From positions 1 to 50,750 of the forward strand of contig JACFNZ010000007.1 in assembly GCA_019454605.1 (NCBI GenBank): a stretch of 50,750 nt of DNA, given 5' to 3'. Of the stretch, positions 30,389 to 33,393 are shown one piece after another. The notes below the pieces were generated by a model that saw only the letters and a program-made list of their open reading frames with translations, was not told the DNA's origin and made no database searches. The position numbers and the translations under genes were made by a program. This DNA comes from Candidatus Altimarinota bacterium. Lineage in GTDB: Bacteria; Patescibacteriota; Gracilibacteria; BD1-5; UBA6164. Positions within the stretch are counted from its first letter, which is position 1; each line of letters opens with the position of its first letter.

Positions 30389-30574
30389 ATGGTAGAAGTT
30401 TTCTGAAATCATAATGAATATATAAACTATATTGATGTAAAAAATGTAAAAAATAAAATATTAGAAATTTGACAAAATAAAGAAAATACTAAAATAAATA
30501 TTTTTTGATTCTTTGTTGATTTACCTGATACTGAATTAAAGAAAAATCTTGAAATAGAATTTTTTAAAAATTAG
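30389..30574 (+). CDS. small unknown protein (61 aa)
   Basis: The 61-residue product starts MVEVFGNHNEYINYIDVKN and has a mixed, soluble composition with UGA-encoded glycines, ending in TAG. A palindromic terminator follows 25 bp later, and a terminator precedes it, so it is a single-gene unit. No family is recognised. Its Gly codon use is native. Confidence 0.55.
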
Positions 30575-30599: not shown

Positions 30600-30625
30600 A
30601 AAAACCAGCTGGTTTTTATTTTTTT
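30600..30625 (+). terminator. terminator after the 61-aa gene
   Basis: AAAAACCAG directly followed by CTGGTTTTT, then ATTTTTTT. Confidence 0.8.
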
Positions 30626-30656
30626 GCAAAAATTTTAAAAGTTTATATACTAAATC

Positions 30657-30823
30657 TTGCTAAAATATTACATAAAAATTACGAAAGTAGTTTACTATAA
30701 AAGTAAAGAAAGGGTAACTTAGGTTACTCGCCCTTTTTGTTGATTTTTATAGTAAACAAAATTGTAATGTTTTAGCGAACACAAGAGAAAACTTAAGTTA
30801 CCCTTTTTTGTTTGCTAAAATAT
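30657..30823. other. palindromic element with two mutually exclusive folds
   Basis: Segment A (30657-30672) pairs with B (30763-30778) over 16 bp including two G-U pairs. Inside lies a perfect 13-bp stem, GTTTACTATAAAA (30690-30702) with its complement at 30745-30757, and at the tip AAAGGG/CCCTTT and GTAAC/GTTAC. Alternatives: 30767-30780 also pairs with C (30810-30823) over 14 bp, and 30709-30723 pairs with 30792-30806 over 15 bp. It fills the gap before the 366-aa membrane protein gene. It might be a 6S-like or attenuator RNA, or a miniature inverted-repeat element. Confidence 0.55.
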
Positions 30824-30869
30824 AAAAAGATATATAATATTTTAAGAGTTTATATTTTAATTTTTTATT

Positions 30870-31970
30870 ATGGATGATATATATTGGTCTTGATATACAA
30901 TAGCATTTATTTTGGAAATAATATCAATAATAATTGCTTTCTCTGAAAAATATTCTATTAAAGCTAAAAATTTTAGTAAAGTATGACTTTATTATAGTTT
31001 AACTCAATGAAATTTTATTGAATGAAATAAACCTTGATTTTTTTCTAATTTTTTCTGAATAATATTTAGATTATTAATAAATCCTTTTTTTAGTTGGATT
31101 ATGGTTTTGATAAGATGATATTGATTTATATCTTTAATTAATCAAAAAATATCAACTCCTGAAAAATTAAAGGAAATTCAATATAAATTATGAGCTAGTT
31201 TATTAAGTGAAGAAGAAGTTAAAAAATTAATAAGAGAATCCGCTAGCTTTATGTGAAAAGATATAATTTTTAAAGATGAAGAAGATGAAAATAATACTTT
31301 GATTTTAGAAAATGAAGAAGATTGATGGTATGCAGAAATTTCATTAGATAAAAAAAATAAAAAAGCTTTTTTATATTCACATTCTCCTGATTATGATAGT
31401 GTCTTTACTACTACATATGAATATAAAATAGAATGAAATTCTTTGTATTGGAGATTATTAGAAAAAGAAATTGAACATTGGTGAAAAAAGGAATATGAAG
31501 TTAAAGATTGAATAATTTTAAAAAGTTATCTAAAAGAAAAAAGTGAGGAAAAATTATCATTTTTCAAATATGAAGATAAAATAAAAGAATTAAATGAACA
31601 AATTAATTGGAATACAAATTATAATTATAAAATAAAATATTATATTTTATCAAAACATCCTGAAATATTACCACAAAATGAGTTTAGACAAATTGTTATA
31701 AAAGAGTTAGAAAGAGTTAAATTGTGATTTATGGAAATTTCAAATTTTTGTAAAGATTATGATATAGAATTAGTTTATAATAAGGAAGATAAGTATTATC
31801 AATTTAAATACAAAAATGAAGAAAAAAATGACAATATAAGTTATACAGATTTTTCAGATAAATTAGAATCAGCTTTTATTCAAGCAAATTGTAAAAGAAC
31901 AGAAATTGAAAATTATAATGATTTTTTAGATACAATTAATTTATATTTATGAGAACAAAAAAACGACTAA
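30870..31970 (+). CDS. membrane protein with soluble C-terminal domain, unknown
   Basis: The 366-aa product has an N-terminal hydrophobic segment (residues 7-22) and one or two more hydrophobic stretches between about 60 and 92. A long charged region of about 270 residues with no recognised motif follows. TATAAT at 30833-30838 gives a likely -10 box. It contains many UGA glycines and native codon use. It converges with a 44-aa gene, and both stop codons lie within one 35-bp terminator palindrome. Confidence 0.75.
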
Positions 31971-32104: not shown

Positions 32105-32440
32105 TTATTTATTAGGATTTAAAAGTATATTACAATTAGGTTTTTGAGTTTTTATTAATTCTTCTTCAATTTCTGTTCTATCTTTTGACGAATTTATTTC
32201 TAAAAATCAAAGACAATTACAATTATTATCTTTAAAACATTTTATATTATTATGATTATCCATTCATCTATTTGATAAGTCATCTGTCTTTCAAATATAT
32301 TTTAAAGAAAATTTAGATTTATCATTATTTAATACTCAAACAATATAAATTCAAGATTTTTCATAATAAGGAGCTTCATAGGTATATAAATTAAATTTAT
32401 ATTTATTTAAATATGTTATCGTTAAGTTTAATTTTTGCAT
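32105..32440 (-). CDS. GIY-YIG domain protein
   Basis: The 111-aa protein shows the GIY-YIG nuclease fold in short form: SGIYIVGVL, then LKYIGKTDDLSNRGMDNH with the conserved Tyr, Gly and Arg, and a later Glu in EIEEELIKTQKPNCN. These match the catalytic Tyr, Arg and Glu of the family. Single-domain GIY-YIG proteins occur as UPF0213-type proteins and in mobile elements. The substrate is unknown. The N-terminal 30 residues are extra. Confidence 0.7.
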
Positions 32441-32793: not shown

Positions 32794-33393
32794 ATGATAA
32801 AAAATTTAACTTCAAAACAACAAAAAGTTTTAATATATTATGAAAATTATATTAAAAGTAATTGATATGCACCAACTTATCAAAAGGCTTGAGATGATTT
32901 AGATATAAGTCCAAGTGTTGTTTTTAGTCATATTAAAAATCTTGAAAAAAAATGATATTTAGTTTCATCTTGAAAAGATAAATCGGTTCAGCTTCTTTCT
33001 GATTCTCAAAGCATACCTTTAATATGAGAGATTGCTTGTTGAGTCCCAATAAGTGTTTATGAAAATTTTATTGATTATATTGATATACCTAAAACAATGC
33101 TAAAATGATGATGAAATTTTTATTGTTTAAAAGCTATTTGAAAAAGTATGATTAATGTTTGAATAGATAATGGAGATTTTTTAATTATTAGAAAACAAAA
33201 TGATGTGAATGATTGAGATATATGAGTTGTTGTAATTTGAGATTATGCAGATGATGAAAGCGCTACTCTAAAGAAAATATATCATTCTTCAAAAAGTTTA
33301 ATTTTAAAACCTGAAAATGATGATTTTCCAACAACTATAGTTACAAATTGACAAATTAGATGAAAATTAGTTTGAGTTATAAGAAATTATTAA
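32794..33393 (+). CDS. lexA: LexA SOS repressor with Cys-Gly cleavage site
   Basis: The 199-aa protein has a winged-helix N-terminus (TSKQQKVLIYYENYI, GYAPTYQKAGDDLDIS, VVFSHIKNLEKKGYL) and an S24 self-cleavage domain: site IACGVP at Cys82-Gly83, catalytic Ser118 in GKSM and Lys160 in ATLKKI. The usual LexA site is Ala-Gly, while Cys-Gly is the form known from UmuD. It represses SOS genes until RecA filaments trigger cleavage. The upstream dyads are its probable operators. Confidence 0.93.

Follow-up and report, generated by a model that had tools for sequence, protein, structure and literature searches.

The element at positions 30657–30823 of the window, by which we mean the whole 50,750-nt stretch of DNA analysed here, is predicted to form a 5′ leader of ~190 nt that possesses its own promoter and ends at the ATG of a gene encoding a protein of 366 aa. 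This leader probably acts in cis as a bistable attenuator, providing on/off control of the gene directly downstream. The original prediction had considered a switch or attenuator, and this reading is supported, at the level of sequence, by the existence of homologues, by covarying and mutually exclusive pairings and by a putative promoter-driven leader that ends at a start codon.

Segments A, B, C, D and E were all located at the coordinates that had been claimed for them. The proposed pairings hold as well: A pairs with B over 16 bp, B with C over 14 bp, and D with E, the latter taken as 30792–30806, over 15 bp including one G-U pair. The local pairing of D was likewise found, its partner being segment D′ (about 30724–30738). 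As a unit, D and D′ are complementary to about 20 nt preceding the U-tract, and the exclusive choice between D:D′ and D:E is central to the element (Table 1). The repeated GCTAAAATAT and GGGTAACTTA are pairing arms and not transposon ends. Folded as RNA, 30657–30780(+) reached −43.5 kcal/mol, compared with −17.5 ± 3.1 kcal/mol for shuffled sequences (z −8.5; 0/200), and the opposite strand of this rod only −28.3 kcal/mol. Candidate F is weak in the window, and the terminal hairpin that is found in other copies is absent from the window's genus.

Table 1. Features of the leader and its surroundings in the window (feature, position, strand, remarks)
−35 box TTGCAA, leader promoter	30624–30629	+	family signal TTG(C) at −34 to −31 before A, 64 copies
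−10 box TATACT	30646–30651	+	T −12, A −11, T −7 before A, 64 copies
Segment A	30657–30672	+	partner B (16 bp) or, partially, candidate F
Stem I, 5′ arm	30690–30704	+	variable sequence; pairing maintained by compensatory changes
Segment D	30709–30723	+	partner D′ (local hairpin) or E
Segment D′	30724–30738	+	3′ side of local D hairpin
Stem I, 3′ arm	30743–30757	+	
Segment B	30763–30780	+	partner A or C
Segment E, paired part CTTAAGTTACCC	30792–30803	+	partner D
U-tract directly 3′ of E	30804–30809	+	proposed termination point T1
Segment C	30810–30823	+	partner B
Candidate F (TAATATTTTA)	30835–30844	+	complementary to 30661–30670 of A; read from sequence
Downstream gene, 366 aa (code 25), ORFan	30870–31970	+	

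Generic promoter scoring gave no information on the AT-rich flank (8.66 observed versus 8.60 for shuffled sequences), and the promoter signal was resolved instead by aligning the copies of the family on A. In these alignments, TTG(C) at −34 and TAtaaT at −12 are fixed, and the RNA is therefore expected to start at A, at ~30657. The window translates with TGA as glycine and the organism is a Gracilibacterium. The 366-aa gene starts 40 nt past the end of the model match; it had no matches in Pfam, NCBIfam or PADLOC and no homologues in 47 other family genomes. Homology of the window to its closest copies extends from promoter to start codon (30614–30872), and the genes behind this block differ. 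Located 5′ of the element are a tRNA-Arg gene and what is left of a longer ORF; the latter is intact in genome G001, where the orthologous locus has the upstream flank in common and carries different downstream genes. The 61-aa ORF at 30389–30574, 5′ of the leader, resembles the degraded tail of a 191-aa ORF in the orthologous place of G001 (L025:3951–4526). On the other side, a LexA-like protein (Peptidase_S24 plus LexA DNA-binding domain) is encoded at 32794–33393, and a GIY-YIG ORF (32105–32440, − strand) lies between it and the leader's gene.

Homologues, which the original prediction had called for, exist. By DNA search, 34 of 60 relatives had a match, the weaker matches being short in many cases, and the covariance model R1, built from 23 copies, identified 66 copies in 33 of these 60 genomes. 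Several copies per genome occur; the window's genome has three, namely the one in the window, the one on C6, which precedes a C5-methylase gene, and the one on C3, which precedes an EcoRI-type methylase gene. An order-wide search with the covariance model yielded matches in 41 of 77 genomes, many genomes being without a copy by this model. Samples taken across the class (288 genomes) and the phylum (379 genomes) gave no match outside the order; since all matches fell inside it, the family, insofar as the model can detect it, is restricted to this order. The named records that contain the conserved 26-mer are Candidatus Gracilibacteria or unclassified Patescibacteria MAGs. Some copies are incomplete: at L025:5281–5364 a half copy, comprising only B to C and lacking promoter and rod, is located between two genes, before a T5orf172 gene, and the copy L095 (G014:C25:12436–12547) has lost B:C and has no ORF behind it, being followed by an apparent tRNA gene on the other strand. 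A match to the E pattern on a phage contig (L149:3251–3285) was rejected as a leader, because its AAGTTGCCCTTTTTTGTT is the right arm of an ordinary terminator (AAAGGGC..GTTGCCCTTTTTTG) after a phage gene.

Pairing in the relatives is maintained and not lost: A:B, B:C and D:E are conserved while their sequences change. Duplexes of arms from the same copy were more stable than those of arms from different copies, with −20.4 versus −12.4 kcal/mol for A:B (z −23), −21.9 versus −12.7 kcal/mol for D:E (z −19) and −18.1 versus −13.0 kcal/mol for B:C (z −13), z values that overstate the number of events because the copies are related and non-independent, although the arms are wholly different between distant copies. 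The duplex statistics were weak for A:F and C:F (z −5 and −4). Whole arms have been replaced together, as in D:E of G002:C20 (GGAGGAAATTAAC:GTTAATTTCCTCC) and in A:B of G006:C9 (GCAGACACATCAAG:CTTGATTGTCTGC), and column-wise covariation counts for A:B, B:C and D:E exceed shuffled and slid controls. By energies and covariation counts, the exclusive helices D:E, A:B and B:C are thus under selection; D:D′ is supported by its energy and by reading. The G-U pairs had been taken as a sign of selection on structure, and the counts bear this out: in the best registers over 65–69 copies, G-U cells outnumbered A-C cells by 110:19 in A:B, 80:6 in D:E and 108:15 in B:C. As G-U is kept and A-C is not, the selected molecule is the + strand RNA and not a DNA hairpin.

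Of the 66 copies, 58 are followed by a same-strand ORF that begins at most 65 nt past the end of the model (median 42 nt). The family members hence lie between promoter and start codon on the same strand, the position of an attenuator leader. The targets include DNA methylases, restriction genes and secreted and membrane proteins. By Pfam they comprise EcoRI_methylase, C5 DNA_methylase, N6_N4_Mtase, Tsp45I, ResIII, Mrr_cat, HNH_4, SNase with Excalibur, Peptidase_S8, Peptidase_S74, N_methyl (pilin-type signal), YccF, zinc ribbons and T5orf172, and many leader-bearing genes are without known Pfam identity. These genes are unrelated and have no common pathway among them. The leader is present at 12 of the 14 EcoRI-type methylase genes of the family, the two without it being in G003:C1 and G018. 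The gene in G018 (L124, G018:C489) also lacks an in-frame TGA and may be foreign, possible explanations being contamination or recent import. In genome G030, four leader-bearing genes (L028, L029, L033, L081) encode a common N-terminal stretch, KxxFLGGLVFLGT..., and different C-terminal parts, one of them ending in a Peptidase_S74 domain; the quartet is possibly a recombining surface-protein family. A gene of many near-identical repeats (KNGKWGFIDKNGNVVIDFIYD) is located directly 3′ of a leader-driven gene at L025:14590–15768.

A U-tract of 4–7 U follows E in 64 of 64 copies, giving the combination of helix and U-tract expected of an attenuator. Four or more U after D′ are present in only 17 of 64 copies, and no more than 30 have a 5′ flank of D that consists entirely of A, from which it follows that the U-run behind E is not retained merely for pairing. 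On average, the D hairpin has about −11.5 and D:E about −25.0 kcal/mol; the energy model used cannot weigh D:E alongside an intact rod, since the two together make a pseudoknot. D:E with its U-tract, set against the earlier D:D′, has the predicted anatomy of an intrinsic terminator opposed by a hairpin. Sequence comparison shows a rod, closed by A:B and with the hairpin D:D′ at its tip, in an RNA expected to begin with A. We propose that E, when it emerges from RNA polymerase, could invade D:D′, and D:E plus the U-tract would then act as terminator T1, turning the gene off. If E fails to invade, the rod would be kept, and read-through would turn the gene on.

A terminal hairpin follows UUUUGG or UUUUAG in about 35 of 62 copies, starting with the GG or AG of this motif and ending at the start codon. 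Most of these hairpins carry U4–6; some lack a U-run, and translational control fits the latter better. B:C is stronger in copies with the terminal hairpin (−24.4 versus −16.1; p = 2e-6, with related copies counted as independent). Both A (GCCAAAA) and C are complementary to UUUUGG. G048:C8 has an entirely different A and B, and there F (UCUCGG), judged by reading, fits A (CCGAGA) but does not fit C. From the terminal hairpin, the B:C energies and the complementarity of F, we propose two successive decisions, D:D′ versus D:E at the U-tract and then A:B versus B:C/A:F. In the second stage, in over half of the copies, C would capture B from A, and the freed A could pair with F (UUUUGG), the foot of the terminal hairpin abutting the start codon, whereupon the hairpin would open and the gene would be on. 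In the window's genus, the first decision appears to be present and the second at most in a weak form. The balance may be tipped by a metabolite, a protein, another RNA or the speed of the polymerase, and no ligand is predicted. As the downstream genes are unrelated, the trigger should be a cell-wide signal, or there may be no signal at all. That the family represents a new, order-restricted class of riboswitch-like or riboregulator elements, placing methylases, restriction and surface or secreted genes under one cell-wide signal through two successive RNA decisions, is a tentative idea that we regard as possible and rather doubtful.

Instead of acting on termination, the leader might act on translation, its alternative folds hiding or exposing the start-codon region, by means of the terminal hairpin or of the region after C, with no role for termination. 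The closeness of the terminal hairpin to the ATG, only a few nt away, and the missing U-run of this hairpin in G054, G014:C11, G032:C16 and G031 are in line with such control; however, most terminal hairpins carry U4–6, the U-tract at E is present in 64 of 64 copies, and where the terminal hairpin is missing, as in the window's copy, nothing structured extends to the ATG, which makes a purely translational leader unlikely. Its own promoter, its compact fold and the U-tract after E would also suit a free-standing sRNA, 6S-like or otherwise acting in trans, that ends at the U-tract with the downstream gene being coincidental; the sequences of D and E are identical among the G001 copies, and pairing between copies is conceivable. 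We consider this quite improbable, given that 58 of 66 copies have a start codon close by on their own strand, that B:C and the terminal hairpin extend beyond the U-tract and that Rfam yielded no 6S match. The comparison with 6S RNA in the original prediction is accurate as to shape, with A:B closing a long rod, and fails as to identity, the element being multi-copy, tied to genes and without such a match.

The suggestion that the repeated parts mark a miniature transposable element was not upheld. A DNA element, whether of this kind or a recombination (cassette) site, would account for one 260-bp unit preceding unrelated genes and for the G001 locus that keeps the upstream flank and has other genes downstream. 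Yet G-U is far above A-C in all three helices, whereas G-T would be no better than A-C for a DNA hairpin; moreover, the orientation and distance to the genes and the distance between promoter and A are fixed, and changes in the rod are compensatory. On the grounds of the G-U bias and of orientation we reject a MITE or DNA cruciform and hold any DNA element to be very unlikely. The opposition of a pre-emptor hairpin and a terminator also resembles the architecture of pT181-type plasmid attenuation, in which case an antisense RNA would be transcribed across the D hairpin; the window's element showed no promoter-like site on its minus strand, and we give this mechanism hardly any credence. A leader peptide was rejected, since A and stem I vary freely and retain only their pairing, and no conserved ORF was seen on reading. 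Rfam at gathering score detected only tRNAs in the window, permissive Rfam searches, including riboswitches, T-box and 6S, returned only chance-level matches, and no known aptamer, T-box or leader peptide was found in the leader. The cis-acting attenuator is the reading that we retain.

The family provides at least 66 instances in one order with a directly testable structure, and a list of targets comprising restriction-modification, secreted nuclease and proteases, pilin-like proteins and ORFans. Riboswitches have been named as a hope for inducible expression tools (PMC11665869). If confirmed, the leader would be a native switch in bacteria still without such tools and would offer a handle on the genes that these host-dependent cells turn on together. 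Searches of the open-access literature turned up neither a regulatory RNA described in Gracilibacteria nor an RNA of this kind in CPR.

With the attenuation leaders of riboswitches, T-box and trp-type systems (PMC10907184, PMC3369936), the family shares its promoter-proximal position, exclusive helices, a U-tract and a nearby start codon; it differs from them in that its competing arm can pair with an entire hairpin, which forms the end of a rod some 70 nt upstream, and in that one leader type serves unrelated accessory genes. Fluoride-type riboswitches (PMC11077080) similarly involve competition between a pseudoknot pairing and a helix during transcription, but the leader described here is much larger, with 10–20 bp in D:E, and has no Rfam match. 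With 6S RNA it has in common a long rod of about 150–190 nt with internal loops, and it is distinguished by multiple copies per genome, an ORF behind it, a pseudoknot-type second fold and the lack of a model match. The controller systems of restriction-modification operons (PMC3695507, PMC5282649) likewise regulate methylase and restriction genes; these controllers, however, are DNA-binding proteins (C proteins, methylase autoregulation), whereas here it is an RNA leader. The family is a new one of a known general kind, the attenuator leader, with an unusual architecture and unusual targets.
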